In this document: positions 5,731 through 57,346 of the stretch, one piece after another
Layout of the letters: every line of letters begins with the position of its first letter
Numbering within the stretch: the first letter of the stretch is position 1
Notes under the pieces: model-generated
What the model was told of the DNA's origin: nothing
The model's input: the letters and a program-made list of their open reading frames with translations, nothing else
The model's database searches: none
Source: Crossaster papposus
Taxonomy: Eukaryota; Echinodermata; Asteroidea; Velatida; Solasteridae
Reading direction: 5' to 3'
DNA length: 64,000 nt
Assembly: GCA_037893245.1 (NCBI GenBank)
Contig: JBAIAA010000787.1
Span: forward strand, 1 to 64,000
Program-made: the position numbers and the translations under genes

Positions 5731-6111
5731 TTAAGGAACATATTAACCACACTACGGGATTGGTAGCGGATGTGTCCGGTATTGGACCGATTACATGCGT
5801 GTTATGTTGTATAATTATTAATAATGAAAAATGGTTGGTCTTAACTATCAATCAGAATGACCTACGGATTTCTGTATTGGAGAAATGTTTAAAAAGACAA
5901 ATAAAAGGAGTGACAAGTGTGCTGTCAGGAACTTTTCTCCAGTGGGTTGACCATGAAGTTGACCTTCCACTGACCCGGCCGCTGTTGAAGGACTGAAATT
6001 CCCTGACCGCACATAAAACTGCCAGTGTGTAAACCACAAGCCACAATATGAAGAATAAGTTAAGATAGGATTAAGGTACCAACTTTTACGAGAGTGTGTT
6101 GGTAATGATCC

Positions 6112-11630: not shown

Positions 11631-11645
11631 ATATATATTTTTGAA

Positions 11646-26200: not shown

Positions 26201-29200
26201 GCAGACATGTACATTTTCCATTTTATTCTAGAAATGGATACAAAAGAATTGACTTGAAATGAATGAATTGAATTGAATTACAAAAAGTCAGTCGCGATTT
26301 ACAAACAATGATGTGCATGCTGTAAAGAAATTTGCTCACACACTTATACAAATAAAAAAAATTTAAAAGAATGATTGTTGTCTCACTTCTAAAATCGTTT
26401 TTTTTTTCTTGAATTAAGAATTTAACAATAAAATAATTACCTCTCCCAGCACAAAATCTACATCTTTCTCTCTAAAGACATCCAGTTGTTTCATGAATTC
26501 CTTCTGGACATTATCTTTGCTCTTGTCTACACAGTAGCACATGACCGGGGACAGTCCGCCGGCTACCAGGGCGTCGCCCTTGGAGGCAACCTGCCTAGCC
26601 AAGTCACATGCTCGAAGGTTTAGAGCACGTGCCTGTGAACCACAGACAAAGATTACAGAATTAAAATGCATAAATGTGCATAAATGAAAATACTGGTGTT
26701 ATACCAAGTATAAACTTAGCCCGCCTTGAATGCAAAATCACATCATGCTCATTCCTAGTACACATGGTGCTACCCCAAACTAAACAGGTCAAAAGAAATA
26801 AGTGCCCCCTGGGAAATGTGCATTTTTCTGGAAGACAATTAGGCTCTTTAACCTGTTACACAAATGTAAAATGTAGTTTGAAATGTTACACATTTATTGT
26901 GCAAAAGAGTTTCATCCAACAGTTAACCTTCGCCTTGAAATGCTGGCATTGATGACTAATAAAAAAAATTACACTTTCTTGCATAGGATCGAGTGGACAA
27001 ATGGAGAAAATCATGTTTTTTACATAAAACAGGATGACAACTATTTTCTTAAAATTATATTTAAAAAAGGGCAACTTATATTGCCCCAAAAGTCAACTTT
27101 ATTCGTTTTCCCATGCAAATTCTATATTATTAACCTGATAAGATGCAATATTTGCCGTGACGTACTGATGCAGCTGGTTTTTAACACTAACAAATGCAAG
27201 TACATAAAATATGACACAAATTGGCTCTCGTTCAGTAGTAGTTTTATTAATAAACCAATCTTTCAAAATGAACAAAATGCTTTAATTTCTCCTACACAAT
27301 GTAAAAACCTGTTTTGTGGAAACACAACGCTTGTTATCTGTACAAAATAAACAAACAATTTGCCTTATAGTAAAAATAGTAATTACTAACACTGCCTGAT
27401 GGTAAAAAACACCTTTCACTAAAATCATCAAGGAGAAGTCACCATCTTTTTGTGTACTATCTGGTATATATTCATTTAAGAATTAATATGAAGTTCGTGG
27501 GATTACAAAAGTAATGATTTTATATGTTACACAAAATATACCAAAATATCTGAATAAATCTTGTCACTGCTGATGCTGCCTATGCCAATACATCGCAATG
27601 GCTGTTGTGTGATAACAAATTGGTGATTCCAATGCATATTCAGATGGACTCTCATAATAGCCGGTGTATGATCAGTGACCGGCTATTCCAATGAACTCTT
27701 ATAATAGCCGGTGTATGACCAGTGACCGGCTATTCCAATGAACTCTCATAATAGCCGGTGTATGATCAGTGACCGTCTATTCCAATGAACTCTTATAATA
27801 GCCGGTGTATGACCAGTGACCGGCTATTCCAATGAACTCTTATAATAGCCGGTGTATGACCAGTGACCGGCTATTCCAATGAACTCTCATAATAGCCGGT
27901 GTATGATCAGTGACCGGCTATTCCAATGAACTCTTATAATAGCCGGTGTATGATCAGTGACCGGCTATTCCAATGAACTCTCATAATAGCCGGTGTGTGA
28001 TCAGTGACCGGCTATTCCAATGAACTCTTATAATAGCCGGTGTATGACCAGTGACCGGCTATTCCAATGAACTCTCATAATAGCCGGTGTATGATCAGTG
28101 ACCGGCTATTCCGATGAACTCTCATAATAGCCGGTGTATAACCAGTGACTGGCTATTCCAATGAACTCTCATAATAGCCGGTGTATGATCAGTGACCGGC
28201 TATTCCAATGAACTCTCATAATAGCCGGTGTATGACCAGTGACCGGCTATTCCAATGAACTCTTATAATAGCCGGTGTATGACCAGTGACCGGCTATTCC
28301 AATGAACTCTCATAATAGCCGGTGTATGATCAGTGACCGGCTATTCCAATGAACTCATAATAGCCGGTGTATGATCAGTGACCGGCTTTTCCAATGAACT
28401 CTCATAATAGCCGGTGTATGATCAGTGACCGGCTATTCCAATGAACTCTCATAATAGCCGGTGTATGATCAGTGACCGGCTATTCCAATGAACTCTCATA
28501 ATAGCCGGTGTATGATCAGTGACCGGCTATTCCAATGAACTCTCATAATAGCCGGTGTATGATCAGTGACCGGCTATTCCAATAGTGGCCGGGGTGTTAA
28601 GAAAGTTATCCCTACTGATTAGGTGACCATAGGACAAATTCTGACCCCTACTGACAATTAGGTGACCATTGGATCCAGAAACGTTTCGTAATTTTGAACA
28701 AAACCTATTCCTACTGACCATTAGGCGACCATAGGCCAAATACCAACCCCAACTAACCATTAGGTGATCATTGGCTATACCATAGAGAAAGGAACAGACA
28801 GTTTATAACTGTTTTTTCCCCTGTTTTTTAAATCTTAAATTCTTAAATTAGAGAAAAACACTTCTGGGAGAGCTACGCAGCAATTTGCCCATTCCGAACA
28901 GGCACATTCAACGGGAACTGCACTAACTAGAGACAGTGAAATTATTATCCTGCATCAAGTTTTGTATACTTTTCTTTGAGCAATTCCTGAGTTTGTTTTT
29001 TTAAGCAGCTTTTGCTGGCAGTCAAAGCAAAATCCCACAATATTGCCATTCGTAGGTCTAGTAATTCTGTCATAGGTTTCCTATTTGGACCTACTCCATG
29101 AAACAAAGGTTTGCAAGGCCCTGTCCATGTCGAACTGTACCAGTGGACTAACATGGTCAAGTTGTCCTTGTCTGTCATCGTGACCTTTCCAATTTGAGGT

Positions 29201-32200
29201 AGCTGGCTTACATACTTAACATATAATGCAACAATCACACCTTCCTTTAAGGTGTCGAAATTGTCTACCATGGTGACTGTATTCACAGGAGGTTGCTTTC
29301 CCTGATCACCAATGATGATCTGAATTAAAAAGTAGAATAAAAAAAGAGGCTGGAATGAGTCAAGTTTTAAAGTTTGGATACGTACAAATTTTAGTTTATG
29401 TTTGCACAACGTCTATAGCTATACATCCAGTTTCAGTCAAGTTTAAAGTGCATTAGTTGATAAGTAGGGCCTAGTATAATAATCAGTTGGTATTATTGTT
29501 ATCATTTTAAAATGATTCTGTTAAAGGACAGCATATTTAGTGAGTAGTCTTTCTCAAACCAACAAAGAAAAGCCGGGTTACTTACAGTTGGGCACACTGC
29601 TTGAATCTTGTCCTCAATCCTTCTTAACTCGTCAGGCACTAAGCAGTATAGGGCAGGGACAGGTTGCTGCTGTTTGTGCTGCACGAGATCCATAAGTGGC
29701 CATGATTGTCTTCGGGGTGGTAACTGACAATTTGTAAAATATAGGTAATACGTACGTTCTATTAATATGTGTGTACAGAATTTGCAATGAAAAGAGAAAG
29801 CAATTTTTGCATAATTGCGGCTATCATCATAATATGCCAGAACCTCATTTTTTTAAACAAGTTATAGGGGCCATTCAAAATTTTCAATGTTTTACTATTT
29901 CGACCAAGTGGGTGGGTGGGTGGGTGAAAATCGAAAAACAGCAAAAGGAAAACCAAACCACGTAACAATCTTCCTCCATGCCTGAAACAACTGCGCACCA
30001 TGCGTTCCTCCACGATCTTTTCCAACTTCCCCCGTGAGACACTATCTACGAGCTTACATGTACATGTACATAACAATGTACATGTACAGCTGTGTTTGTC
30101 TTTCGTACTCACCGAGGAGTTGTACATGTAGTACAGACGTTTTCCTAGTTCCGGATCGCAAAAACAATTCAGGCTGTTTTCGGCAAGTCTAATCCTCGAA
30201 ATTCAAATGAAATAGGTTTAGTAGTTTACCTAAAGTGATAGAGAAACTACAGTTTTTGTTTCGATATTTATGCTCTTTTTAATTTGAAAATACGACGTCA
30301 AATATACTGACACCACTTTTCCTAGTTGCGGATCGGTTCAACCAATTCCGGATCGGATAAAAAACTGCTTCGTACATGAAAAATAATCACGCTAGAACCA
30401 ACCCGAATAAAGCCTATATTTCTGATAAAGTATTCATTATTTTATATAAATACAGTTTAAAATACATTTCAAATACTTCCACTTCAAATCAAGTTCAAAA
30501 AGAAGACTTGCAAGGTCCAAGCATGGAGGTAGCCCCTCCATGGTCCAAGCAAGGAAATGTTTTGAAATGTTTTGTCCGTGTAGCGTGCGCGACCGGTACG
30601 TGTGTGGCGCGGCAACGAGCCGATAAACATTGACCGATCACATCGCAGGCCCATCGCAGAACACGTCATATGAAAACGCTTGCGCGCGTGTAGTTGATGC
30701 ATGTATTTTACGCGCGATCCGGAACTAGGAAAAGATATACGTTCAGTCTTTGGCAGATTTTTTAATACTGGAGACTTTTAGACTTATTTTTACTCAACAA
30801 ATAATCGATGCATGAGTTTTATACAACTGTAGACTACAAAATGGCATAAATGAAATCAAACGTTTTGAGTGACATGTCGCAGAATATTTGTTCGTGGTTT
30901 TGCGGCTCCCGTGATTTCTACAAACCGTCCAAACATGTCAAAGTACGAGTCGAAAATCTAGCCAAAATTCCTTTTCTGGATATTTTATTGAAAAGATATT
31001 TATGTAACAAAAAGCTTGTATGTTTCTTCTCAAAATGCACTTCATCTAAAACAATAGTATTGGAGACCAAGCCATAAGAGGTAGGTTTTTATTTGAAGCG
31101 ATCCGGAACTAGGAAAAATCCGGAACTAGGAAAACAACTGTAGTACAGTATGTATTATGTACCGATTGCGGTATGTACTGTGTGTGTGATCCCACTGTGC
31201 AGAAACACCACGCGTTTGGAACGCAATGTGCGCCAATTATTATGTTAGCGAACTTTTATAGGCTACATAAAAAAAATGAATTGTTTCTCATCAGAACCTT
31301 TTTGAAAAAATGGTCCGTCAGGGCATTTTATATTTTATATTTTATAGAATAAAAATGTCGCCGAATCTTTGAAACTGGTATCTGACTAAACAACTACAGG
31401 CGCGCTGGTTTCGTTCGTGCCTACCGCATATACATACATGTACATGTTGATGAACCGGGCGTTGGTGGTAAGCGCTGATGTGCATTTAGCTCTGATTGGA
31501 TAATTTTTGTTGCGACCTGCGAACGTAGGTTACTACTTCCGTGGCTCAGCTGCGCGGCAGAGCATGTACGCTACCCAGAATGCCGTGCGTTTTTCTACAC
31601 AGAAATCTATGAAGCTCGTCAGGTGTTTTCCAGCGCCCAGTTATAGTATGGGCGCCACCGCGTGCGGGGGTGAAAGCGCTAGTTGACAAAAGCTTCGTTG
31701 GGACTTTGCAATCTTTATCTAAATTACAAATTGTTTTCGTTGATTTACTTTCCAAAACTGACCAATGCACACATTTCATATAGAATAAAAGCTCAAATAA
31801 TGTTGGTAGAAACTAGAAACACAAAAATATAGTTAAGTCGATTTATTTTCTCATATAATTTTGAGCACCCCAGGTTTTTTTAATGAAAGAGGCCCCACAG
31901 ACACCGTTCTCACTACTATTATACTCGGCTTCTCCGATCTCCTGTCCGCCGTCGATTTAGATTTTTCCGGCTTGCTTCTGCTGGAACATGTATGGCCACT
32001 AAAAACATTCACTTGGCCCGCGTGAGTTTTAACTGTTATTGCTTTCAACAGCGTGTTTTTACAGCATATATACAAAATTAAAAAAATAAAAATCTCGGAA
32101 TTTTCGGGCGTCCGGTACATTTATATTTTGTTTATAAAATATAAAAAAATACCCACCCGGCCCGAAAAATTGGCCCGGCCGCTGATGAGAAACAATTAAT

Positions 32201-35200
32201 TTTTTGTATGTAGCCTTAGCAAAAACGGCGAACGTCATTCCGAGTAGTCTAGCCCTAGACCCTTGTGTTATTTCGGCGCCCCACCACGCGCGCAGATTCG
32301 TTAACGCTGTCTCTTTTTCAAATCCCGGCTTCGTGTGCGTTCTGGTCTCACGCATGCGTAGTTTACAAAATGCGGCTGGATCCATGTTCGCACTGGAGCC
32401 GACGTTTGACAAACGTACATGATTTTGGATTCCCAGAAGGGTCTAGCACTAGTTGGCTAGCAATTGTTAACTTTAACCTTAGTTTTCGACGAATCTCCCT
32501 CGCTTTTCCGAGGGATCCAATCAGCGACCGAGTTTGAGCCTCATCATGAATTATTCATTATACACAAATATAAGATACTGTGTGTGTGTACACAAGACAG
32601 TGTACATGTACAATGTACATGTATGTGATGGTGACTGTATGCACGTGCATTGCGCGAAATGTGCAGACTTTTAATAGCATTGTACATGTACGTGTGTCCG
32701 ATCTTCCGGGGCATGGCAGTGCAAGCTAGCTACAGCCGGCCACCGGTACCGTACCGCGGGTCTGCCCGCTGCAGCATCGCTATGTTATGGTGCTTCAGCG
32801 CGGTGCGTTTTTTTGTATTCCAGTGTATCGAACGTACAGTACGTCAGTATTAGCCTCAAATCTAGTGAGGTCGTGCTTCATTTTGGCAAACAGTTAATTA
32901 CCTGCAAAAACTACCTTTCCCTGAAATAAAAGGGGAAATTTATGGTGGCTCTGCATGGAGGGACATAAAAGTCGTGAATTTGTTTGCGAGTAGTTGTGAA
33001 ACTATTCGCGACTTGTCGTGAATTTTAATATTCGCGACTGGTTGTTAATATTTTTGCGACTGTTCGTGAATATTTTTGCGACTAGTCGTATAATTCGTGA
33101 TTATTAGTGAATATTTTCGCTACTAGTCGCGAATTTTTTTCGCGACTATTGAAAATATTGACGACTATTCGCGAAAAAATATTTACGATTAGTAGCAAAA
33201 AATATGTCGTAAAAAATTCAGGACTCAAATTTGCGACTTGTCGTTAATTTATTTGCGACTGGTCGTAAATATTTTTGCAACTAGTCGCAAATAATTTCAC
33301 AACTAGTCGTGACAAAATTCGCGACTAGTCGCAAATTTTGTCACGACTAGTTGTGAAATTATTTGCGACTAGTTGCAAAAATATTTACGACTAGTCGCAA
33401 ATAAATTAACGACAAGTCGCAAATTTGTCGCGAAAATGTTCACGACTTTTGATATCCCTCAGGGCCACCATATAAATTAGTAGCCCCAGTCCCACTGAAG
33501 CCGGATATGCTACGGATCGCCCCGGATCGCCCCGGATGACCCCGGATGAAACTACGTTTGATCCGGGGTGGTCCGGGAAGGCAATCAAAAACAAAGTGAC
33601 ATGTTCCCCGATCCTACTACGGTTCTACTACGGTTTGACTACGGTTCTGCCACGAATGGGCCCGGATCACCCCGGTTCAAGCCTGTTTTTCCCCCATGAC
33701 CCCGGATGGTCACGGATTCACTACGGTTCCGCCACGGTTTCACTACGGATGCGCCACGGTTCATCCCGGATGTGCCACGGTTCACCCCGGATGACCCCGG
33801 ATACACTACGGTTCATCCCGGTTCATCCGGGAAATACCATGGTGACACCGTAGTGAATCCGTGGTGATCCGTAGTGGAACCGTAGTGGAACCAACTCCCG
33901 TTTCATCCCGGATAAACACGGTTACACTACGGTTACGCTACGGTTTATCCCGGATACACTAGGGATCATCACGATCGCACTACGGTTTCACTACGGTTCT
34001 TCGCCGCCCCCCTCTCCCTTCCCGGATGGCCCCGGATCACTCCGGATGCTAGATGCTGATCCAGGGTGACGCTCGACTTCCCGGACTCACTACGGATGTC
34101 CCCGGATGGTCCCGGATGCATGGCCCCGGATAGTCCCGGATAGTCCCGGATTATCACGGTTTGACTAAGGTTCCACTCCGGATGACCCCGGATATGAATC
34201 CGGGTTGATCCGTAGCGTATCCGGCTTTCGGTGGGACTGGGGCTTTGGAGGTTTTCACCATAGAGCAAAGTTGTTTCAATTCACCCGCAGTCACAAATAA
34301 ATGCCGGGGCAGCTATGATTTGCTGTGTCAATGTACATGTAAAGTACATGTACATGTACATGTACTGTATGGTGCGAAATACGGTACCTCTGGAGACGTG
34401 AACACAATGGGGACAATGGGAGTAAAAAGGTCTCCAAAGGGTGATTTATATTTAGGTCTCCATTAGGAATTTCACGAATTAGATTTTTGGATTGTACTTA
34501 AATTACTCAAAAGCTAGGGTTAGGATGTGGGTTAGTGTTTGGGTTAGGGTATAATATAGGGTATTATTGGTTGGAAATTTCAACCCAGGAAAATAATTGT
34601 GGTTAAAATGGGAGCATTTTGAAAAAAGTGCTCGACTTTCTAACCATTTTGTACACGCCCGAGAACATGTCATATGTTCGGTAAGGGAAGCCATGTCTCC
34701 GTCCACAGTGATACAAAAATGCGAATACATGTACAGTATAGTACATGCACATCACGCCGGCCGGGTCAATCGCGGCGTGTAACGTTTTGCGTAACCCTCG
34801 CACGAATTTGCCTATAACCGTCCATCATTATCACGTGATATGAATAATGCATATATTACAATAGTCTGACCACGCCCCCTGTGTGCCAACTTGTCCAAGA
34901 CCTTCGAGTGAGTCCACTGAGTTCGCGGGTGCGATTCGTCTGTAGAGGGCGCCCTCTATAACATCGGTGGTTTGTGTCAGTGATCGCGGAATAAACAACA
35001 CGAAGGTCTTGGAACCAAGACTACATTCCGAGCTGTTCGCTGTTGGCCAGTGACGTATTTTAAAGAAGGCAAAGAGGTTAGCAGTAGCACCAGGCGGCAG
35101 TGTTCTTGTTACGGTTTTGATTTACGTTTCAAACTTTTCGTTATAAACGTTTTGAGCAGTTACAGGGGTCTTAAAGGTAGGATACACCATTTAGTAGGCC

Positions 35201-38200
35201 AGCCAAAGTGTGAAAATACACTTTGGACGGCATTGTTTGTTAATGGCCGGCATCCATGCTAGATCTATTGTTCATGGGATCAGGAAGATGATTAGGGTGG
35301 ATGCCACGCTTGATTTTGAATTTTAAGGTCATTTTGAGGTCAAAAGGTCAAATAAGGTCAAAAATCTGTATTTTCAAAATTTGTGCAAATTTTAACCGCA
35401 ATTGATAGATCTACCCATAAAAGTTATTGTTAACTTCATGTTGATACACCAAACCTATGAAAATAACGGATAAACTTTGATCTTGTACACAAATATATAG
35501 CAAAATGAAACTTAAAAGGGTGATTTCTCAAAAAGTGCATATCTTAAGAATAACGAAGTTGTTTGCTCTCCCTATCTCAATGGTGCATATATTTGTTTCA
35601 AACAACTTTTTTTTCCAAGGTAAAGGTACCCAGGCAGTTTTTGATATAACAACAAATTCCATACCACATCTTCATATAATGTTAGGATGTAATAAAACAA
35701 GTAAATTTGAACGAAGTAAATTTAAACGTGTAGTGGTTTTATAGTTTGACATGGCACTTTGACAATTATTTCGTTGTGGCAGGGTGCATCACTTTTTTCT
35801 TTGTACATCAGAATAATTATGTGCCCACCTAAGCTTGCTCACAATAACAGAATGGAAAATTAGTTTACGAGTCTATTGGCCAGCTGGGTTGTTGCAGTCA
35901 GTTGCGTCACATCCGCAGGCATAAGTGCATCTTAGGTCCTTTTTGAAGCAAGTGCATCGGGATGTCCTGCACTTTGATTTGCATCCACAGGAAACTAGCT
36001 CAAGACATGCATCTGGGATAGGGGGTAGTCTTGTCCAGACAGCTTCCAGGTAACCTGACTCGTTCTTCCAAGCTGCTGTGTCTAGAGGAGATGGGACATC
36101 TATGTGTTCCTGGTCTGCCTGAAACCAAATCTTTGCCTGGTAGTTGGCGCGTACTGTGTGAAGTTCCAGTGCATCTCTTGTTGGCGGTAACATTTCCAGA
36201 CCCTTCTTCGCCTTACTAAAGAGTTGGAGTCTGGCATGGTTGATGGTTGGCTGCTCAGGTGCACCGTATAGGTGACATACAAACTGCTCAATGGGGGCAA
36301 GTTCTCCATCACAACCAATTCCCTTGACGAGTAGTGGTTGCTTCTCAAAGATTTTCCAGCACATTTTCTTCCCATGGCCATGGAAGGAGGAGGTTGTATC
36401 ACATCCTGTAAGGGCATAGCTGAGCAGGTTATCCCTCACAGGTTGTGCGAGTCTCTCAGATACTGCATGTATTGGATAACATTTGCGCTTCTTTGCCGTT
36501 CCAGAGATCATCCAAACTTCTGTTGCTTTTGAAGATAAAAAGTGCACCAGAAGTAGCATCACGTCTGTATCCCTGCAGATGACCACCACTCTTTGATATC
36601 CTTCATTGACTGCCTCACATGCATGGAGTATCAACCTGGTGTCAGCCTCTTCATGGTTTCCTCGAAGTTTTACATCATCTCTCCTCGTGGACCTGGCATC
36701 TGTAACATCAAGGAACCCACCGCCTGTTACTATCTCGTATCTTTGCAGTAGATCCTTGCCCTTCTGTACGATGGCGTTTGACAAGAACTTGGCGAGATCA
36801 GCTTTGTTCTCATCCAAGGCAATGAATTGGCCCCAAACCTGTGGGAGTGGGACCTGGGATCCATCGATGAGCTTTCGAATTGGCTTTTTTTTCCCCATTC
36901 GCTTTGATCGAGTCACTGCCTTGATGGAGCTCTCTCCAATGTAGCGATCAAATACCACGTCAACTCTTGTTGTATTCTTTCCAAAGTGTTGTGTCACACT
37001 ATTTATGAAAACACCAGCGTAATCACCAAAAGTTTGACACCCATGAGGCTTTCCAAGAGCTTGGATAAGTGCATGACCATCTATCAGCACACATGTCTTC
37101 ATGTTGGCATTCGGTATATTTGTGGGCGTGGTAAGCCCAGCCATTAAGATGTGGATCAGATTTGCCTTTGCTGTTGAATTCATCTCCCCTCTAGCCTTGG
37201 CGAGAGACAGTGGGACGGGAGACAGCTCATGCTGGAGAATATTCACCATTTCCAATGGTCGACCTCCAGTGGCAGCATTGAGCAATCGTTGCAGTAACTT
37301 TCTGTCGGATTTGATAATCTTCTGTACATTTTGTTTGGTGGAAACATTTGCTTTGTATAGATCAGCAAAAGTTTTGAAGCGATGTTTCTTCAGGGCGTCA
37401 TGAAAACCGACAGTTTCTTCAATCAGACGTTGCTTCACGTTGGTCATCAAATACTGCTTTCCACGATTTTCAGCCGTTAGAAGATCACTTACCACATCAA
37501 TTGGTGCAGTGTCTTTGGTTGCCAATGATACCAGTGGTATCTCTCTAGTATCATCATCAGCGTCAGTGTCGTCTTCTTCTTCAGCCAATGTTGGGTTTAC
37601 TCGGAACACATCAAATCTTGTTAGCTGTGTGGTAAGCTTCTTAACATCATCAACATCTCGCTTTGTGCGAGATGGAAGACTGTCAGAGCGGATGAAAGTG
37701 GTTTCTTCCTCATCATCTTCCAGATTGAAGAGAAATCTTATGTCTTGTGTGATGCGTGATCGCTCGGACCATGTGATACAAAATTTGTCCCTGGCTTGAT
37801 CATTTCTCGTAATTCCAATTATGCCATTCTGCATTTTGCATGTCCTATTCATCCACTCAGTTGCCTGATCAGCTGGAACCTGGTTGAAGCGCCGCTTTGT
37901 TCTCTTCACAACAAAATTTCCATTACTGAATTCTGCATAAACTTCTGGGGCTGTCTTCTCAAGGAGTTTCATATCTGCAAGATAAACAGGTCCCCACCGG
38001 GCATAGTTGCTGTGATCATAGATGGTGAGCCATGGTAGCATTGCTGAAAAAGCTTCCAGATGGAGGATCCAGTTTCCGTCCCTTTGAGCTCTGATAAAAT
38101 CTAGCAGAATCTCCACCATCTCCATGTAATGAGACCACAGTCGGAAGTTTGGATTCCCAGAGTGCTTGTTGTTGAATTCTTCGATGAGCTCTTGAACATT

Positions 38201-41200
38201 GTTACTGCTCAGAAAATCTGACAGCTGGCTTACTGCTTCGAAAAGTTCTGCTCTGTGATTGCCATCTCTCTTTTTGAACTGCTTAACCACACTTTGGGCT
38301 AGTTTGTCAACTTCCACATATTTTTGTTTACCATTTTCAACCAGCCAAGATTCAAGCATAGACCATTTGATGTGCCACAGAGCCTCATAGGTCAGTTGGT
38401 GTCCTCTAACGGCGCGGTAATAGGCTTTGCCTTGAAGCATGGTTTCAGTCGTGTTGGCTGCATAAACACCTGCCTCTGTCCACAGATCATCGAGCCCAGC
38501 ACTTTCCATGTGTTGACCAATATAGCCTTCAGGAAGTTGAAGCAGACATGGAGTCCTCCCATGAGAAAAATGACATTCTCAAACTTTGGATTCGCCCATA
38601 CGAGTTCTTTTCCTCTGCTGTATAGTGGCTGGTCCGCTGTGATGATGGTGTGTTTCTGACCTGTGTGGTTTGAAATGTCCACAAAGCGATTGATCACGGT
38701 GAAGAGTGTGTCATTGTCATCTGCTGGTGCCTGAAGAATGGGTAGCATCCCTGCTGTTGTCACAGAAGGGTCAACTATACTGGTGGCTTCATTGAGTGCT
38801 CCCCATGCAGGAACAGAACGATCCTCTCCATCATCATGTATGCGTGACACTACCCATGCTAAATCTTTTGCCCGTGCCTTTGGCCTTTCATTGCAGATGG
38901 TGTTGAACCACTCTGCCTCAATTTCCTTCTCACCACTAAACGAATGTGAAGGCCTCCTTCCTGATGGCAAGGTAGCATGATCAAGTCTTTGAAACTCCTG
39001 CAGAGCATCAGGCTTGATAGCCCTTGCTCTCAGGATGTGCTTGCTTTTTGGATCACCTTGACCTTGTTGTGGGGCAGGTCCTCTTTGCCATACCATCATC
39101 TGTGTGCAGTGGAAGGTGTTTTTTCCATCAAGTGTTGCTTCCAGGACATCAATGTTGTCACAAGAGCAGTGGATCATCCTCTCTTTTACAATATTGTCTG
39201 GGACATAAACATTGCCGTTCTGTGCAAATCTCTTGAGAATGTCATGAGCTATGGTTGTGTCAATTCTCCGCACAGTGTCGATACCGATGGTATGGTTGGC
39301 TGCATGAAACAAGTCAAGAAGTGCTTCAGAGCGGGTAGCTTGGTGGAGAGCAAGACCCAAACCAACATGCTTTGGCGTCAACTTCCCTTTATTGGAAACA
39401 GCAAAGACGATGTCTTGGGCAATACTGCATACAGTCTGCTTGACACTGTCGTCATCTTCAATGCCCCCAAACAGCAAGCAAAGAAGAAGATACAGGCTGT
39501 TTGGAATTACTTGATCCACGTGTTCTTGATTAAGTTCTTGCCAGGTGCAAGAATGTCCTGGCGTGTCAAGCAGATCTTTTAAAGGCTATAATTTATCACT
39601 GCACGATACCCCTATCGTGTAGGAACCTGGTATAACATATGAAAAAGCCAAATTGTACAAATGTTCAACATTTTAACTCATTGCAAGTTTGTTGACTGTG
39701 TTGGAGTCTGAACAATGTTTTACATGGAACGATTGGGAGTACAAACAATTTTGATATCAGACATACAGTTTTTGAGCAACTTGTCAAACTATAAACCCAC
39801 TACGCGTTTAAATATACTGCGTGAATAACATAACTTCTTGTTTCATTACGCCATTATGGTGTATTATAAAATGTGTGTTATAATTTTTTTTTTATTAAAA
39901 ACTCCCTGGGTATATTTACCTTCCAACAAAAAGTTGTTTGAAACAATTATATGCACTATTGGGATAGGGAGTGCAAACAACTTCGATATACTTAAGATAT
40001 GCACTTTTTGAGAAAATCACACTTTTAAGTTTCATTTTGCTATACATTTGTGTACAAGATAAAAGATTAACTTTTAATTTCACAGCTTTTATATGTCGAT
40101 ATGATGATAAAAATAAATTGTATTGATAGATCTACAACTTGGGGTCAAGTTTGGTGCAAAATCCAAAAATACAAATGTTGACCTTATTTGACCTTTTTGA
40201 CCTCGAAATGACCCTAAAATTCAAAATCAAGCGTGGCATCCACCCTAATCGTCTTCCTGATCCCATGAACAATAGATCTAGCATGGATGCCGACTATTAA
40301 CAAACAATGCCGTGGAAACTTTTTTTAGAGGACTTTTTCAAGTTTGGCTGGTCTACTAATTGGTAATTGCTTGAAGTATCATTAATGGGTAGATTTGGGG
40401 GTTGTATTTCATAGTAAATATCGTTTAACTGGCCTGTCCGAAGTTTTACAATCATGGATGCCGAGAAAAGCACGAAAAAACAGCGTTTGTTTTCAACCGG
40501 CGTTGGGCAGTTATTCTTATGTTATCTTTGTTTTTTCGCGATCGCCGTTCGCCGACCAAAAGTCGAAATTTTAAAACATTAAATATGTTGAATGGCCCCT
40601 TAATTATATGGATGTGTACAGTAGTTATTTGTACTGCTCAGTCACACGGCCCTTGGTTAAACGAAAACAGATGCTACAAAATATTCACATTAATATCAAT
40701 CCTAGTACATGTACTATGGGTGCACAATTACCACAATCAGCTTGTTCAAGTTAGACATAAATATCTTCCACCAATCCATTATGTATGGCTGAAAGCGTCC
40801 AATGTAGGCAGAGGGCATGTCCTTCCTCAGAGCTTCTGGGTCCATCTTGTCCAAAGAAGGTTTGACCAACTGGGGCACCTCTTTAACGTCTGGAACTGTC
40901 TGTGTCAAGACAAATGAAACACCCAAAGAAATAGTAGCCGTCCGCTTATTTATTTAACTGACTCCCAGTAAATGTAACGGCGTAAATATAGTATTTGTCT
41001 GCTTTATTTAAGGGAGACAAGATATATTAAAAGAGATATAACCTTCAAACAGAGAAGACCAAGAACATCTTCAACGCCTGGATCTCCGTTTTCCTCCGTT
41101 TGTGCCGGCTTTGGGTACCACTCGTCAGAAGACCATAGTCTGTAGTGCATTCTTACTCTGCCTTTTACAGACTTGAACCGGAAACAGTGAGGCTTGCTGT

Positions 41201-44200
41201 GATTGGCGAATGTACCATACATGTGTGGGGCCAACCACTCCTTTATGTTGTACACCTCACGAACTTCGAAAGTAGAAATCTCTGGAGAGTAGCTCCCTCT
41301 TATAGTGGTGTATAGATCTGATACAAGAAAATAACACGTTAATACAAGAAATATAAGTGCCAGCGATTTAAACCTGCTATTTCTAATTCTGAATTCATAC
41401 ACATTTGCTTTTAAATGGAACATCTAGAATACAGTAATTGTTGCGGTCAGTCCCCTCTTCCTAATCACTCTAAACTAGAAACTTTATCACGCCACCCGGA
41501 AAGAATTATGACTTTTGCTTTACCTTCCAAGGTGTATACATTGCTCTTTCTGATTTTAGTTGCAACTCTGGAAAACATTTGATCCACATCTTCATGCGTG
41601 TGGCCAACAGGCAAAAAGTTGATGCAAACCTGTCCAAACACACATTAAATTGTGCATGCAATAAGTTCAATTTAACAGCTGTGCAATAAAATGCATAGGC
41701 CTACAGAAGGAAAAAATTATTTTAAATATTTTTAGTCGATGTTTTAATTGCATCAGACTCCGGAGAGAGACTTTAATCGGTGTTTTCATGTTTGCACATA
41801 AAACACATTTTCTGTTTTTGTATATCTGATTGTTAGACTACATCTATCAACTTCATATATTTTACAATAAAACCAAAAAACACTTAAAAATGTAACGTTT
41901 TATCTCGAGACCGGTGTACCGTTATACTCAACCAGCAAAGATGCAAAGCACAACACGTAACGGTTTTTATTCTCTCTTGAGCAGTTATCCAGCTGTAGGT
42001 GTAGCGTATGGCCTAGATGAGACTTGTTGATCCACAGGGTTTTAAGTAGTATGTTTAATGTCAAATTCGGATCATGTGGAAATTGCTTCAAGTCAATGTA
42101 AGCCAGTGGAACCTTTCCAGACGGGACATCGGTATGAAGGATCGCACCTGAAAAGGAACACAGAAAGCCATCTTTAAATATGATACTGTGTACTCTTTTC
42201 AGTAATTAAATATGATGTTGTCTATCACCGAAACACAGTTAGTACGCAGAATTAAACTTGTATTATAACCAGTTCGACCTGAACCCGCCTCGGGTCGAGT
42301 TTCGTTAAAAATAATCTCGCACCTCGGCTCGGTGAATGTTACTATAATCCCGGCGCAAACTGGTTAAGTTTATATTACATAGTGCTTCTCGCCTGGTGAT
42401 TAAAATAACAGTATGCATATACTCACCTGTAACGTGAGTTGGAAGCCTTGTCAGGCATTGTGTGGCCTTGTCAACTTGGACTAAGTGAGGCAAGTCCGTC
42501 TTCCTTTGGTCCATTCCATCAATGATGAGTGCGACATGCTCTCTGGGCTCACTACGTGCTAAGTCACGGCAGTGATGATACTGCTTTCTTTCAAGTCTGG
42601 TTTGTAAACAAGGACAAATACATTTCATTTTGTACTTATATCGTGAAACTTTTGAAGTAAAGAAAACAATTGCAGAAGGGAAAGTTTAATTTGTAGGCCT
42701 ACTTACTTCACTCTTTCATCGTGAAGTGCCTTCAAACCCCGGAGGTCTGTTCTTTCCTTCTCACTGATACTGCGCCTGCTGCATTCTTCCAGCTCAACAC
42801 AAGTAGTGCAGACTGTAAAATCTGACCCCTTCAATTAGAAATCAATAATCGGTTAGAGATGTCCAGACCCGAAATGCTATTATTTTTTTCAAGTGGGTCA
42901 TGTAGAAACGTTAACCTTCTTTTTTATGGTCCATTTTATGGTTCATGGTCTCAAATAATTACTGTTTCTTACGGTTGTCAAGTACCTTTCTGATCTCTAC
43001 TTTTGGGAAATGCAGTCTCCATAAGCAAGTGAAGTATCCGTATGAAACCGTGGTGTCGATCCCTCTGTCAGCAAACTCGGCAATCATTCTTCTGTGAACT
43101 GCTCTTTTATCCCAAAATGAGGGAAGTCGAACCACATCCCTATCTGGCAAGTAATCACCAACAAGATCGAAAAGTGATTTCATCCATCCAATGGCAGAAC
43201 TCGTCTTCTCCTGCTGGCTGAATTTCCCGGTGTTCCCGTGCCTAATGTGTTCCACACCACATGCGAGCAGACGCTGACACTCTCTGAAACGCCATGATGA
43301 CACCCCAAAGATTAAACACCAAGCAGTATTGCAAATACGGTGTCCCCGAATCATCATGTAAATAGTCAGGCAATGCTTTGCTTGCTCTGTTGGAGACTTT
43401 AAGAAGGCCCTCAATTGTGAAATGATGAAAGATTTTTGCTCAGATTCATTTTTCTCTTTCATAGATTCTTGGCAAATCTTGACATCCTTTATTGAAAGAA
43501 GCTGCAGACAGTTATTCGAACAACATTTGCTGTTTAAAATGTCCAGGGGTACAACACTGACATTGATGTGATGTCTCGGCCTTTTTGCAGGTGTCGATGA
43601 CGCACATGGACATGCAGGTCGTCGTTTAGGTGTGTCGTCAAAATCTGTGATATTAAACGTAATTCATCAACACTGTTTTTTACCTAATAATGTAACATTA
43701 GGACAAATTAAGTTATGCACTTTTCTGACAGACGTTTGTTCCTTGTCTGTGTAATTAAAAAAAAAATGTGGTTGGCCGGTTAATGTCTGAGATATTTATG
43801 ACCTAACTCCCTAGAGTGTGTGCAAAATTATATTGATTTGGGAGGATTTGGAAGGGTTAGGGAATGTCTCCCGCAAAACAATAAATGAAATAATGCATTG
43901 TAATTAGTCCTACCCTGAAACGATGGTACATCTGAATTTGGAAACGATGGTGTTTCATCTTCATCACAGTCTTGTTGAAAGGTTGACCACTCGAATGACT
44001 CGTCAGCATGACTGTCTAACGTTGAGAAATCTTCGTCATTTGTTGTCTCTCTTGAAATCGAAAGCACGTCGTTTAAGTCATACTTGTCGTAATCTAAGTC
44101 ACACGTCGCGCTCCAACTGCTAAGACTGGAATTTGCAGCCATCTCCACAAGTACGTCCCAGGTCCGTGAAGAAGAATAGGGTTATGCGCTATAGCGTTCA

Positions 44201-47200
44201 GGTGGTACGCAGGGGTGTACGTACGTGTACGTGCAGTCATACGTTTTGTGCGCGCGCTGCACTTTGAAACTTTTGAACGAGGCGCGGCCTAGTACAGTAC
44301 AAGACATGCTTTGTTCGCGTACAGTCGTGTACGCGCGCGTCGTGGATAGTGCGTATAGTCGGGATAGTGCAAACGTACGTACTCCACGATTCGTTCATCA
44401 CACTTCATATCGTGCCGGCCAAAGATATGATTATGAGTGCTGAAAAATGACTTTTCCAAGGAAATGGTGGTAGGTTCTGAAGGAAAATGCTGTTTATGTC
44501 ATGGTAACATCTACAACGCCTCCATATGAAAGGCTGGAACATCAACGTCAGGCCTTGAGAATAATTAGGTAACTGTGGGTAGTCATATGGGCCTTAACAC
44601 ATATATGGTCCCCCCCCCCCCCCCCCCCCCCGTTTTGGGGGACCAAAGAAGCGAACAAACGGCACATAGGTCCTAGCCTATAACTTATTTGTATAAATAT
44701 AAGGCCACGAAATTATTAAATCTGGCAACTTTCAAATTAAGTTGCCATTTTTATTTCGTGGCCTTAGGCCATAGGCCGGGCCGCTATGTGTCGTTTCTTG
44801 TACATATCGTTAAGTATTTTACCGGTATTATAACGGCATATACAACAAAATGGACTCCATGTAGGACGTGATTGAAGAAGTTATAAATAGGATTACACTC
44901 CATAGTGGAAATAGTCTAGTTTATTGACATTACGGGCAAGATTTTTACATTTTAGATAATCTTCAAGAATGAGGGAGAAACTGCTCACGCCAAAAACAGG
45001 CTTGACTTTGACTGGAGCAAAAGTGCCTTTAGCAAGAACTTCAAAGCTGACGTGGACCCAGAATCGTTCGTCCACAAATTCAGACAACTAGTAGTAAGAG
45101 CTCAAGGTGAAAATGATTACAGCCAGCCAGCAAGAAATAACACCTTGGACATGTCACAGACACAAGACAACCAAAATACTGAGGCAGAAGAATCCCTGCC
45201 TAGCCAAATCTGGGTGATTAGGTAAGCCTAATGTAATAATTAAAATGTACCTGTACATAATTTTGTTCTTGTTTCCTGAAAATGAAATTATATGAAACGT
45301 AAGGTAAAACGAAGTTGTTCTTTGGGGGAAGGGTTGGCAATATATATTGTTTGGTGTTGGAAATATCACCCAGTGTTCTCTCCTTCAGGGACAGCCAACC
45401 TGAATTGGTGCCAATTGACGCTTCTACGCCCATGGAGTTAATAACAAGCTTCCAAGGAGGAGAAGAAAGGTATAACACCTTGTATGTAAACTGAATGTAG
45501 GCACCTTGTATGAATAAATTCATTTGGGACCGCCATGGAAATAAGTTTTGTAAAACTTGTTTGCCTTATCCCTGCTCTTTCCACTATTTTAACTCGTATC
45601 CTGAATTTATTTCATAATTATATAGCTCTACAGAGATGTATCGTGCACTTTGGATCGTTTCCTGGTTTTTAGTTGTGATTGTTGTCATTTGAAACTGGAA
45701 AATCTATCGAGACAAATTTCGATTTTACTTTATACGCAATTATTATTTACAGCTTGGAAAGCGAGCTAATTTTGTCATCCATTCTCTCCGAACCATTGGA
45801 ATCACCTCCACCAAGGTAAGTAATTAATAAAGAACAAATTGATAACAATTAAATATTAAATGCATGACTACCAAAACCATTATTGAAATTGAAGAAAACA
45901 AATTTAAAAGAAAAAAATTACCATTGTGTAAAATGCTGAAATCGTGTGCCGCTTAGAAGCCACCTTCTTTTTTCTAAACGTGGCACACACTCGAATTTGA
46001 GTGCTGGTGGGAATCAAACATATCTTTGAATCAACAAAAGCAAATAGGATAACACAATTGTTATTTGAAAGCTGATTTAGTTATCTTGAAGCTCATACAA
46101 ACATCAATAGCAAATGCTGAATATTGTGATAAGCCAAATGACACGTTCCAACAACCAACAACTTTAAAATTGGCACTGCAGTCATGGGTTCAGGGCAATA
46201 CACCCACCAATATTCAACTTCATACACGTTTCATTTTTTGGGACACCCAGTATATACCTTTAATTTTCCTATTCAAAACCAGATCAGCTCCAAGGAAGAG
46301 AACAAAACAAGAAGAAATTGCAGTGCCACCACTTGTAAAAAGACGAAATCAAGATGTGCCAGTCTTGGATGCTCGGAAGAAGATGATAAATGACGTGAAT
46401 AAAAAGAAAGTTGGTAAGTGTGTACATTGTATGCAGGTTGTGGTCACTGTGGTGCTACATTATCAAGAGAACAGTTTGCTTTGAAAGTTGTGATTGTTAA
46501 CCTCACTATATAGGTGAGTATTACGAAAATAATGTTCATTGTAAGAAACACATAATGTTATATAATATATATATAATGTTCTCATAATGTTATCTTTATC
46601 TTCATCCTCTTCAAGCTGAAGATATGTACATCAGTATAAATAATTTGGAAACCGGTGAGCAGATCAGGGATATAGATGAAAGTTTTGTGAAGCAGCTCAT
46701 GGCTAGAGTAGAGGATTACCATGACCAATCCTACCAGTCTCTGTGTGTCGTCGTGAAAGATCTCAATGGCCGAAGGTACAGTGAAATCAATGTGAGTGAA
46801 GCATCGGTGTTTATATCATTTTAAATAATGACTTGCTGTGGTCTTAATACATAGTGATATTGTTTCTCTTTAGCCTCTGCCGTTTCAAATATAATTATTA
46901 TTCAATTTATGTGACCATTACATTAATACATACAAAAAAGCTCTTTGTCTTGTGGAGTTTAGTCCGAGCACACTATGCTTTAGTGTGTATGCTGTACAAC
47001 ATTAATTTAGTTTAAATGTTACAGTGCAATGGGTTTAAGTACACCGTCATTGGAGGACAACACCTCTTCACAGCTACTAGAATGCTACACCAGCAGCACC
47101 CTGGTGAAGAGAAGTTTGCCACCCTCCGATGTGTTGTCTACGCTGACGTAAACTATGAAGAGACACTGTGGCTTGCTACTGAGCACAATACTACTAGTTG

Positions 47201-50200
47201 TTTCATTCATGCTACGAGCTTCCAGGAAAAGGTAGAAATGTCTGTTAATATTTCAAAGTACTTGAAGTCAGCTCTCAAAAACGTGTTTTGTAAGTAAAAC
47301 AACATAATCACCTGCAAATGAAGTACAAGTTTCTATTAAGACAAAAATACAAAGTGTGTGAAACTAAAAAACATATCTGAATATTAACACTAATAATAAG
47401 GGTGGTTAACTGACAGACAATTGTTGTTGTTTTTGCCTTTGTCTCTTATGAGTCTAGGTGCAAATGTGCAGGAAGCATTATATCAAGTGGCCCGAATCAC
47501 CAAACAAAGACAAAGACTGGAAACGCTCATGCTGCCTAATACAAGATCAGGTATTGCATTGCCGTTTATTGTGGCACTTGCCCCTTTTCAGTTTGTGCTC
47601 CCTCGTCCCAGGGTTCCAAGCATGCTCTGACGAATGACATATATTAACTAAGAAACTCATCCCGTATGTGAGACCAATGTTTCTCACATTTATGTGCAAA
47701 AGCAAGTATATTTGACCAGGTCACAACAAGTTTATAAAACAGAACAAGCCTTCAAAAATGTTGTCGTATAGTAACCAATGTTTCTCACATTTTATCTTTT
47801 TTTTAAAACAGAAATTGGTTAAACTGAAGACTGTTTTATACCTAGCGACACTGCAAACACGGCTGTACAATGTGTTGGAGGGGGTTTTCGATAAGTTTGA
47901 GGACGGCTCATTGAAGGGGCAGTCTCTCACAAGGAAGGAGCTAACTTCGAAGCCTGACATTGGCCGGTGTTCGTACACATTTAGTGGTTTAGCAGCACTT
48001 CCAGAGGAAACCACACTCCAGCTGCTTTTAGATGTGCGTGATGAGAAGTTGTCACTGACAGAACTCGCTCATGAAGCCACGTTGCTCAGAAAGCTCCTTG
48101 ATGTCCAAAGGGGTTTTGTGGCTCTTATGGGCTGTGTCTCCTGGAAAGAAGCTGTCAAGGACTATCCTGATTTCACAACAAGAGAGGTCTTGTCGCGCTT
48201 CACCAAAAGTGCGAAGGCCGAAGAAGACAAGAGGCTGGTCACATTCTGTCAGAAACTCATCAGTAGGAAACGCAGTGGTGCTACTCCATCACATGTTTGC
48301 AAGGGCAGTGCAGAAGGATTCGTACTGAAGGCTGATGTCCTGGAACTTAACCTGAAGCAGCTGTACGAAATTTGGCCAACCTTCAAAGGCGCACAACTCG
48401 TGATAGCAGACCCTCCAGACGTTTGTCTTTTTTTTTTTTTTATCAATGCAATGTCAATGTTTGTCCTCCAATTAAAGCATCAAATTTTGATTGTTTTCTT
48501 ATTCTACTTCAAACACAATGGTTGAAAGGACGGGTGGGGGGGGGGGGGGGGAATGGTTGTTTACATCGGACGCGGCGTGTACGCCTACGTGTTTCCTCAT
48601 GTGTCGTTTTCATATTAACATGTAGAAACTCTTTTTGTTTTGTTGCAGGAATGGAATCAGCAAGAGCTGAGGCAGTTCATCTCAGTGATCCACAACATCA
48701 ATTCGACAATGCAACTAGATCACTACTGTGTGTGTGTTCTCTGCACAACGCAGCAACTCGCAAATATGCAAGAAACACTGAGCAATTCAGGATTTTTCAA
48801 AGAGGTTGACGTGATATACTATCATATCAAAAACAAGAAAAATGGTAAATACAGACTTTTAGTATCGTGCATTTAAATGTCAATTAAATAAACAGCTTTC
48901 TGGTCCAGTAGGTTTAATACTTCATTATTTTCTATTTTCCCTTCCAATCTAGATGCATATGATATCAAAGAAGGCTGACACAAGTTAGTTCAATAAAGTA
49001 TTTTATTTTGTATAAAGGGCATATCTAAGCAAACTTGATTTGAAATTATGGTGAGGTTAATGCAGTTTTTCCCCACCGTCATTTTTCTCACAGTCAAGAA
49101 CAAGTTGACATTCACTGCATCAGTTTTCTGTGTGGTTGTTGCATACTGGACCAGTAAGCACCAGCTAGATCCAACTTGGTTCAACATCAATGGCCAGAAT
49201 GCCCTTAACTTCATAGCTGTTGAGGAGGAGTCCCCTCAACTGAATGATGAGGGGAAACCAGTAAACGAGCACCAGAAACCTCAAGAATTGTTCACCCACC
49301 TCATCACCTGCTTGTCCAATGAGGGAGACACTGTTATTGACTGCTGTTGCGGAACTGGTGAGATTATAATAATATAAACAAGGCCAGACTAGCTAGAAGG
49401 TGTCATAATTATATTTAATGAATTGCTGTATTGGCTTTGATGTTCATTGCTGCCGTTAATACTTGCAACCGATAAAAACTGTTGGCAATTAATGTTTTCA
49501 TTGGGCGACGTTTAATTAATTATCCGCCCGGCCTACATATTAATTATTTCGTTTTCAAACATTATTCTTGTTCACCGTGCAGGTGCTGCAACGATTGCAG
49601 CTATCACAAAAGAACGTTCTGTGGTTGCCGTGGACTGTGATCAGGACCAAATTGTACATGTCAGGGCAACATGTCTGATGTTATTTGGGGATTCAGAGTA
49701 GTATGGGGGAAGAGTGCAAGATGGACGAAAACGTTTGAAAGTAAAAGAAAATGTAATATTTGTCCCGAAATTATTTGGACTAGTGCAGTGCCCATTGAAA
49801 ACGTGCCTGTTTAAAATGGGTAAGTTGCCCTCCAGTATTGCAGCCTAAACACTTCCAAAGTTTTTTTTCTCTGATTTGTAATGATTTGCGGTTAAGTTGA
49901 TTTGTGTTTGTACAAAACGAGAAACTGATATGTCAACATTAAAGCCGAATGTCTTGATATAAATAGGCAGCACGCGATAACCTCTCTATGGTATAACATA
50001 ACAAAATGTGTTGTTATCTACACCTTATGCACTGTTGGTGATCTCCCCTTCAGAAAATGGTCGAGCCCCACCGCATAATTGCACAATTTCCCGTCTTCAA
50101 AAAAATATGGTAGAGCCCATCTAGTATCTAGTACTGCAGTATGTGTAGTACATGTACACATAATTGCCAGGTTTGCAATAAGTGGGCTTATGAACAATCT

Positions 50201-53200
50201 GACAGAAGTGGTCAATACAAAAAACGCTTTTTGCAGCTTTCTGAAAAACCAACAACTTCAAAACTTCACCCACCGATGTTCAACTTCATACAGTGCCCTG
50301 TTCTGGAGATAATCGAATTACGGACAGAAACAATATTCGTTTTGGTAGACTAAGTATAAAGCCACAACAGAAACCAACAGAAGGTGTGTTGTCTTGCATT
50401 TATAGTCATTTTCGTCATGTTTGTTGCCTCGCAGTAGCACCTTTCATGCAGTTAATGTGTATAATAATGGCGTTTTTTTATGGTGTAAATGGAGGACACA
50501 TGCCTGGCGACACAAAGGTGAATTGGGGTTAGGGTTAGAATCGAGGACGACCTCGATTGAGATTCGTGTACAAAACAAATGAGTGCCGTCGGAAAAAGTT
50601 ATATAGTACAAGCAAAGGAAATTATCGAGAGGAACAAAAAAAACTCCTTGATTTACACCATAAACAAACGTGATGGTACTTGTACATGTACCCTGATAAT
50701 ATAATAGACAGTGTAAGAACATTTGTGTAAGAATTGTGACTCAAGCCATTATGAGTGCACATTGAAATATCTATTGGAAAGGAAAATTTTGTATTATTAT
50801 TGTTTCTTATTATACTAGGCCTAAAAGTGTTTTTTAATAGGAATGGTCACGTGAGCCTGGTTTTCAAAGATTTGTGGTCAAATTCATCCCAAACTAAATT
50901 TATCTTTAATAACGATTTTGTTACTAATTTTTTCTTTCATGATGGGTTTGTGAAAGATAAACTATTGGTTTTGTAAATCTAAACATTGCCTTTTGTTACC
51001 ATCTCGCCATTTTGACTGAATAGCCGGTCACTGATCATACACCGGCTATTATGAGAGTTCATTGGAATAGCCGGTCACTGATCATATACCGGCTATTAAT
51101 TATGAGAGTTCATTGGAATAGCCGGTCACTGATCATACACCGGCTATTATGAGAGTTCACTGGAATAGCCGGTCACTGATCATACACCGGTTATTATGAG
51201 AGTTCATTGGAATAGCCGGTCACTGATCATACACCGGCTATTATGAGAGTTCATTGGAATAGCCGGTCACTGATCATACACCGGCTATTATGAGAGTTCA
51301 TTGGAATAGCCGGTCACTGATCACACACCGGCTATTATGAGAGTTCATTGGAATAGCCGGTCACTGATCATACACCGGCTATTATAAGAGTTCATTGGAA
51401 TAGCCGGTCACTGATCATACACCGGCTATTATGAGAGTTCATTGGAATAGCCGGTCACTGATCATACACCGGCTATTATGAGAGTTCATTGGAATAGCCG
51501 GTCACTGATCATACACCGGCTATTATGAGAGTTCATTGGAATAGCCGGTCACTGATCACACACCGGCTATTATGAGAGTTCACTGGAATAGCCGGTCACT
51601 GATCATACACCGGCTATTATGAGAGTTCATTGGAATAGCCGGTCACTGATCATACACCGGCTATTATGAGAGTTCATCGGAATAGCCGGTCACTGATCAT
51701 ACACCGGCTATTATGAGAGTTCATTGGAATAGCCGGTCACTGATCATACACCGGCTATTATGAGAGTTCATTGGAATAGCCGGTCACTGATCACACACCG
51801 GCTATTATGAGAGTTCACTGGAATAGCCGGTCACTGGTCATACACCGGCTATTATGAGAGTTCATCGGAATAGCCGGTCACTGATCATACACCGGCTATT
51901 ATGAGAGTTCATTGGAATAGCCGGTCACTGATCATACACCGGCTATTATGAGAGTTCATTGGAATAGCCGGTCACTGATCACACACCGGCTATTATGAGA
52001 GTTCACTGGAATAGCCGGTCACTGGTCATACACCGGCTATTATAAGAGTTCATTGGAATAGCCGGTCACTGATCACACACCGGCTATTATGAGAGTTCAT
52101 TGGAATAGCCGGTCACTGGTCATACACTGGCTATTATGAGAGTTCATTGGAATAGCCGGTCACTGATCATACACCGGCTATTATGAGAGTTCATTGGAAT
52201 AGCCGGTCACTGATCATACACCGGCTATTATAAGAGTTCATTGGAATAGCCGGTCACTGATCATACACCGGCTATTATAAGAGTTCATTGGAATAGCCGG
52301 TCACTGATCATACACCGGCTATTATAAGAGTTCATTGGAATAGCCGGTCACTGATCATACACCGGTCATATTCCGAGTTAAAAAGTGGAATAATCCCTAG
52401 TAGTCACACAATAGCCATTTCTAATGCAATAACAACGGTACGACATAGAATAAAACAAAAAGCAATGTTTTTACTGGTGAAAAATAAAGAATTAAAAGGG
52501 CCTTGTACCTTTTCTTAAGAAATTGCGAAAGTTCGGTTTTTCTGTCTACATTTCTTTGTATTTCGAGAATGTAGTAAAAACTTCCGTTTCTGTTTTACAA
52601 AGAATTTCCTTTCAAACTAATCTTAATATAAGAAAATAGTTTTCATCCTGTTAATAATTTATTTATATTCTTTCTTACTTAAATTAATTTTCTTAAAGTG
52701 TACAATTGTAAACATGCATTTAATGTTTTTGTTTTTGTTTACTTATCTTATTGCATGCAACGTCCGTATGACATTATACAATGTAACGTCCGTTATAATA
52801 AAACGTCCGTAAAGTGTACAATTGTAAACATGCATTTATTGTTTTGTTTTTGTTTACTTATCTTATTGCATGCAGCGTCCGTATAACATTATACAATGTA
52901 ACGTCCGTAAAACGTCCGTAACGTTATACAACATGCAACGTTCTAGTAACCCTAAATTAGCCATATATTGAGCCAATCTGTGAAAAAATTTAAAAGAAGC
53001 TAATTTCAACTGATTTTGGTGGGTATGGGTATGGACAACTAGAGGTCAAAGGTCATTGACCCCTGCCTAAATCACTAAAAATTATATTTCAGCAACAAAA
53101 TATGGTATATAGATGATCTTGGTGTCAAAATGCACAGAATTACAAAAGAAGATGACATCAAATAATTATTGACCCTTGGGACAAAATCCTGACCTCCGAA

Positions 53201-56964: not shown

Positions 56965-57346
56965 CTAGAGAATAAAATATACACACAAAAGGCCGGATTG
57001 CAAATGATTATGTTTTTTTGTAATCATATTTAGCATCTTTTTGTTGCAGTATAGAGACATCATTGTGCTATGAAACACACCCTCCCCCCACAAGATTTTG
57101 TAAAAAGATTTTGTAAAATTGTGTCTGTCGGCAAAGCTAGACCACCTTTATCAAATGTGTCCAAGATTTTGCCTCCAAAGCAATCTACCCTTTCCCCTCC
57201 CCACTTCCACCTCTCCCCTCCCCTACCCCTTGAGAAATTCAGCATGGAGGGTAAGTACATGTATGTTGACAATTTGTTGGATCGCTGCGACAACCTTCAT
57301 TCAAATTGGTCTTGGCAAAATCCTGCAACTTGTTGACCATGATGTC

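Follow-up and report, generated by a model that had tools for sequence, protein, structure and literature searches.

The locus described here lies in a 64,000-nucleotide stretch of the genome of the sea star Crossaster papposus (assembly GCA_037893245.1, contig JBAIAA010000787.1, positions 1 to 64,000, forward strand), hereafter the window. It is occupied by a probable DNA transposon, a unit of about 24.8 kb with inverted repetitive ends and two intron-bearing genes, one encoding a DUF7869 protein and the other a DNA amino-methyltransferase-like protein. An initial annotation, made from the sequence alone, had described this unit as a mobile, self-modifying element. The coordinates of all features are collected in Table 1.

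Terminal Repeats of the Element

A 47-bp satellite is present in 20.2 copies at the left end and, as its reverse complement, in 28.6 copies at the right end (Tandem Repeats Finder), and the array arms are complementary up to 97% over 720 nt, in agreement with the opposite orientation initially described. When 18 of 19 left units and 27 of 28 right units were compared (one unit per array, not 47 nt long, was omitted), 9 distinct variants were observed on the left and 11 on the right. Four of these variants are common to both arrays, which fits one inverted terminal repeat that was kept alike or recently formed. Outside the arrays, 24 bp and 38 bp away, lie two matching tips. With up to 2 mismatches allowed, the tip AATGGCTRTTGTGTGA occurs twice in the window, at 27597 (+) and at 52419 (-), and a pair of matches arose in 0 of 100 shuffles, so the matching outer tips of the initial annotation were recovered. 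Terminal inverted repeats, a mark of class II (cut-and-paste) transposons, are thus present as arrays plus tips.

In every 47-bp unit, an imperfect 24-nt palindrome of the form GCCGGT...TGATCA...ACCGGC was observed, centred on TGATCA (39 occurrences) or TGACCA (10 occurrences) in both array regions, which were read slightly wider than the arrays. This palindrome is only mildly unusual, its 9 of 12 pairs being reached by 498 of 20,000 shuffles. A viral-contig scan with the 47-bp repeat and a search of Rfam each gave 0 matches.

The DUF7869 Gene

The minus-strand gene consists of nine exons, which join into 779 residues. Its protein matches the DUF7869 profile (PF25273) with 206.9 bits (gathering score 26; E = 2.9e-61). 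Because exon 9 matches the C-terminus of Ptychodera protein P0002 (36% identity, E = 2e-23), the gene comes within about 360 bp of the left array. The gene reported initially is therefore present, but it is longer than implied, with its ninth exon beyond an 11.4-kb intron that holds nested insertions. The two intron-bearing genes do diverge, near 44.1-45.0 kb.

At E <= 0.001, 157 relatives of this protein were found, and the best among the 120 matches listed were from Acanthaster, Ptychodera, Saccoglossus and Holothuria, with 43-51% identity. In a tree of 27 rows drawn from the 120 relatives listed, the window protein and 10 hemichordate or echinoderm rows formed a clade of 11 with support 100/100. 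A viral-contig scan with the alignment gave 42 pattern matches, of which 0 were confirmed.

Three conserved acidic residues, as in DDE/DDD enzymes of the RNase H fold, are present: D345, D429 and D471 each occur in 77 of the 78 aligned rows, and the remaining row has a gap at D471, which lies three residues past E468. The glutamate occurs in 69/78 rows. The acidic residues are spaced D-83-D-40-D in the spliced model, and the glutamate lies at 37, so that the proposed D-83-D-32-E triad fails both in its spacing (D-83-D-37-E in the spliced model) and in its last member, the conserved triad being D-D-D. An RNase H-like catalytic fold was also observed in the predicted structure of a relative.

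In addition, the DUF7869 profile built from 78 rows finds human NIPBL, the cohesin loader, with a match in its C-terminus at E = 2.2e-9. With the P0002 C-terminus alone, the NIPBL match spans 94 residues at E = 2.5e-12, and an unrelated match comes next at E = 0.006. Window exon 9 alone gave no NIPBL match and is tied to it through P0002. On sequence comparison, the C-terminal domain of these proteins and the C-terminus of NIPBL are homologous, as a module shared or borrowed, which raises the question of whether the animal cohesin loader took this part from a transposase or a transposase took it from the loader.

The Methyltransferase Gene

The plus-strand gene has 11 exons that stay open for 742 residues; a start exon was not found in it. 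Junctions were picked by hand so that the reading stays open and in phase, and 10 of 10 introns were then GT-AG. The G+C content is 0.451 in exons vs 0.334 in introns, and 0.514/0.358/0.482 at the three codon positions. The C-terminal part matches N6_N4_Mtase (PF01555) with 32.4 bits (gathering score 26.7) and PHROG methyltransferases down to E = 3e-11, while NCBIfam methylase models stayed far under their cut-offs. The motifs follow the order IV, X (QKP), I (DCCCGTG), which we take to be that of the beta class of amino-methyltransferases. The claim that the element carries its own DNA methyltransferase therefore holds insofar as an open, spliced gene of N6/N4 type occupies the other half of the space bounded by the termini. 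Among the Pfam matches of the two main genes, which cover part of the element, no TET/JBP gene was found.

Searches for this protein outside the window gave little. A viral-contig scan yielded 10 pattern matches and 0 confirmed; tblastn against phages gave 7 records, to the methylase part only, with a best E of 0.07; and tblastn of the whole protein against plasmids gave no match at E <= 0.1.

The middle part, with the core VIGGQH...LWLATEHN, is probably ParB-like, as judged from the resemblance of its motifs and from a single weak match, to a protein annotated as ParB_N. Of the 10 matches that plasmids gave at E <= 10, that protein had the best bits (35 vs 34 for others), with a weak E of 3; it itself matches PF02195, and 16 of 41 residues are identical to the window protein in pairwise alignment. 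No Pfam family matched this part up to E = 10, a search in which HMMER filters drop most weak matches. Phage tblastn gave 2 records (E = 2 and 3), neither annotated as ParB; the Protein Data Bank (PDB) gave 5 matches, none of them ParB; and a scan of genome contigs with the Myxococcus ParB_N protein gave 58 pattern matches and 0 confirmed. The predicted fold of exon 6 alone was uninformative (predicted local distance difference test score 52). Of the initially proposed ParB plus beta-class pairing, the methylase thus has profile support and the ParB domain does not.

Host Gene and Nested Insertions

As shown in Table 1, exons of BHMT bracket the element at 56965-56882 and 26623-26441 on the minus strand (tblastn, with fragments of human BHMT as queries). 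They are about 30 kb apart and in the same orientation as the DUF7869 gene. Since the exon matches fall on either side, the element sits between two BHMT exons. The two matches leave about 15 intervening BHMT residues unplaced, and a small exon may therefore lie between them; with this reservation, the described placement in one BHMT intron of about 30 kb was confirmed.

The last intron of the DUF7869 gene (40731-29320) holds a unit with inverted ends of about 580 nt (35186-35751 and 39782-40364). Its minus-strand gene encodes EADTR/DTD/GCD motifs, presumably of a PIN/NYN-like protein, and a CXC-like cysteine tail. Its Pfam matches are weak (NYN, E = 0.19; TCR, E = 0.19), and a PDB search gave 1 match at E = 0.31. 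This gene was considered as a third cargo of the main element and rejected, because it belongs to its own inverted-end element nested in the intron. A second, diverged copy of the PIN-like/CXC gene was observed at 312-2382 (24% and 30% identity in two pieces), and such units are likely another transposon family. A 39-nt inverted repeat at 29866-29904 and 40562-40600 might delimit a larger outer insertion around the PIN-like element, although this is a guess from the repeat itself. Without 29866-40600, the main element would measure about 14.1 kb.

Also in this intron is a near-perfect 202-bp palindrome (33226-33427; 101-nt arms, 98%) within CGACTAGTCG-type repeats, followed by short GC-rich repeats up to about 34141. 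Elsewhere inside the BHMT gene, two minus-strand open stretches (20351-20818 and 22525-23166) presumably correspond to a DIRS-type tyrosine recombinase and reverse transcriptase, by eye. A direct tandem duplication of 727 bp with 99.7% identity (60275-61001 and 60998-61724) and further tandem arrays at 11645-12630 (23-bp unit), 15436-17111 (about 322/188/176 bp) and 6108-6929 (93-94 bp) were also observed in the window.

Table 1. Features of the element and its surroundings, in window positions.
Feature	Position	Strand	Basis or content
BHMT exons and intervening stretch holding the element	26441..56965	-	tblastn
Left terminal tip AATGGCTGTTGTGTGA	27597..27612	+	
Left array of 47-bp repeat, 20 units	27637..28583	+	
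Transposase exon 9, C-terminal domain	28945..29319	-	match to Ptychodera P0002 C-terminus
Possible outer nested insertion, 39-nt inverted repeat AGGGGCCATTC	29866..40600	.	repeat alone
Inner nested element, ~580-nt inverted ends (81% over alignment)	35186..40364	.	minus-strand gene at 35873-39585
Transposase exons 1-8	44142-43914, 43644-42986, 42828-42707, 42596-42427, 42147-41912, 41629-41524, 41317-41043, 40899-40732	-	Pfam DUF7869
Methyltransferase gene exons	44956-45221, 45389-45469, 45753-45815, 46283-46413, 46616-46791, 47025-47289, 47458-47550, 47846-48420, 48649-48844, 49094-49357, 49583-49701	+	N6_N4_Mtase, PHROG
Probable ParB-like domain, exons 5-6	46616..47289	+	motif similarity
Right array of 47-bp repeat, inverted, 29 units	51018..52365	-	
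Right terminal tip AATGGCTATTGTGTGA	52404..52419	-	

Interpretation of the Element

The unit is probably one copy of a DNA transposon, with the methylase as the element's own cargo that marks or binds its repeats. Its transposon-like nature, already proposed in the initial annotation, is well supported by the inverted arrays and tips, the transposase-type gene abutting an array, the integrase-like predicted fold and the conserved acidic residues. The DUF7869 protein would be the RNase H-fold transposase or integrase of the element, and each terminal inverted repeat would consist of a short tip and an array of about 1 kb of 47-bp units. The transposase may bind the repeated units and the tips, and would cut and join the ends through a D-D-D (or D-D-E) metal site. 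The second gene would be the element's own cargo and would encode a DNA amino-methyltransferase of bacterial type that probably also has a ParB-like domain for DNA binding. The most likely role of this protein is to bind or methylate the repeats of the element, the palindromes around TGATCA being candidate sites, and it could in this way steer transposase binding or host silencing.

Several observations weigh against this interpretation. The tips show no clear target-site duplication, so the term mobile is not borne out; the best candidate, 4 bp outside the tips, agrees at 8 of 11 bases in 121 comparisons and by a rough estimate is within chance. For the predicted fold, Foldseek gave no match at E <= 0.001, and several top structural alignment rows had root-mean-square deviations of 18-19 A. 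The splice junction 41912/41629 differs from the relatives and fits poorly with them, so this transposase copy may be impaired. In the tree, the crinoid Antedon, an ambulacrarian row, fell outside the clade of the window protein. Motif IV of the methylase reads DPPD in the spliced model instead of (D/N/S)PP(Y/F/W). Finally, no relative of the methyltransferase was found in 5.8 billion proteins, either with the whole protein (8,000 candidates scored) or with its last 149 residues (62 candidates), candidates far shorter or longer than the query being excluded; the pairing with the transposase therefore rests on one locus.

The motif IV residue bears on a competing explanation of the last step of this mechanism, which fits the rest of it: the methylase-like protein may be catalytically dead and serve only as a DNA-binding partner of the transposase, as a ParB-like clamp or array reader. 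We regard this as a serious possibility, if below an even chance. The usual aromatic fourth residue is replaced by Asp; enzymes listed in the accessible part of PMC8885841 have Y, F or W there, and according to the same part a change of SPPY to APPA abolished the activity of bdelloid N4CMT. Yet the protein retains the motif X/I region (QKP, DCCCGTG) and still scores as N6_N4_Mtase. Since the frame is open, the protein is not simply decayed, and the DPPD residue could be particular to this copy. The label self-modifying is accordingly not upheld here.

It is also conceivable, albeit rather unlikely, that the DUF7869 transposon is genuine and the methylase a passenger, a host or foreign gene inserted in this copy or lineage. 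The lack of any methylase relative in the protein searches, although the transposase has 157, and the pairing at a single locus would agree with this. On the other hand, the methylase gene runs divergently from the transposase gene, stays open over 11 exons and fills the space that lies between the transposase start and the right array, and no repeats flanking it were detected by self-comparison at E <= 1e-5, a threshold that misses short terminal repeats. That two ordinary host genes lie by chance between unlinked satellite arrays is very improbable and was rejected: the lack of a target duplication and the one copy known would agree with it, but the common array variants, the matching tips, the integrase-like predicted fold and the position of the entire unit inside an unrelated host gene speak against it.

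Beyond the reading as a single transposon copy with its own methylase, a broader proposal is advanced only tentatively and as doubtful. DUF7869 proteins could serve as transposases in a large superfamily of DNA transposons of animals that has as yet no name, with an ambulacrarian branch that acquired a bacterial ParB-methylase and uses the inverted 47-bp arrays as a platform for methylation and transposase binding, so that the element would mark its ends with a modified base foreign to the host. It is a real possibility that this transposase superfamily has never been described, and the transposase may stand in Repbase under another name. If the proposed function is right, a large DUF family gains a function.

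The presence of genuine N6-methyladenine (6mA) or N4-methylcytosine (4mC) in animal DNA, and the enzymes responsible, are disputed. If a transposon supplies an amino-methyltransferase itself, 6mA/4mC would have a concrete origin, with a short list of candidate targets.

Comparison with Known Systems

DNA-modifying genes in mobile elements are already known, whereas the pairing of DUF7869 with an amino-methyltransferase was not found in the open-licence PubMed Central (PMC) literature, searched by titles and the beginnings of abstracts. The initial annotation, too, had been aware of no described element that couples this DDE-like protein to a ParB-N4/N6 methyltransferase. DUF7869 proteins of animals, including sponges, and of metagenomes belong to the same family as the window transposase; the word DUF7869 did not occur in that literature, nor were these proteins described there as transposases. 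In the accessible part of a review of giant transposons (PMC6431247), no DNA methyltransferase cargo is named.

The TET/JBP-carrying DNA transposons of fungi (EnSpm, PHISTA, ESTA, IS3EU, hAT7, Harbinger and Dileera), as presented in the available portion of PMC12730594, resemble the window element in having terminal inverted repeats and a DNA-base-modifying gene beside the transposase. They differ in encoding a dioxygenase instead of an amino-methyltransferase, in being fungal and in belonging to other transposase superfamilies. Dinoflagellate long interspersed nuclear element (LINE)- and DIRS-like elements that encode DNMTs, and DIRS elements whose adenine methylases are Dam-like, likewise carry their own DNA methylase, of adenine type in DIRS, according to the available sections of PMC5890265, where DNMT-encoding DNA transposons in marine viruses are also mentioned. 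These are retroelements with Dam-like or C5 enzymes, in contrast to the DDE/DDD-type element with its ParB-like and beta-class protein.

Bce_0392 of Bacillus cereus, cited in the consulted part of PMC5512222, is a ParB-methylase protein and thus resembles the window protein in the fusion of a ParB-like domain to an adenine methylase, the ParB assignment in the window being weak. Unlike the window protein, it is bacterial and is described there without a transposase. The N4CMT of bdelloid rotifers differs in that it is encoded by the host, has SPPY and is joined to a chromodomain, and it is not reported as transposon-carried in the part of PMC8885841 considered; it is similar to the window protein in that a bacterial-type amino-methyltransferase acts in an animal genome on transposons and certain tandem repeats.

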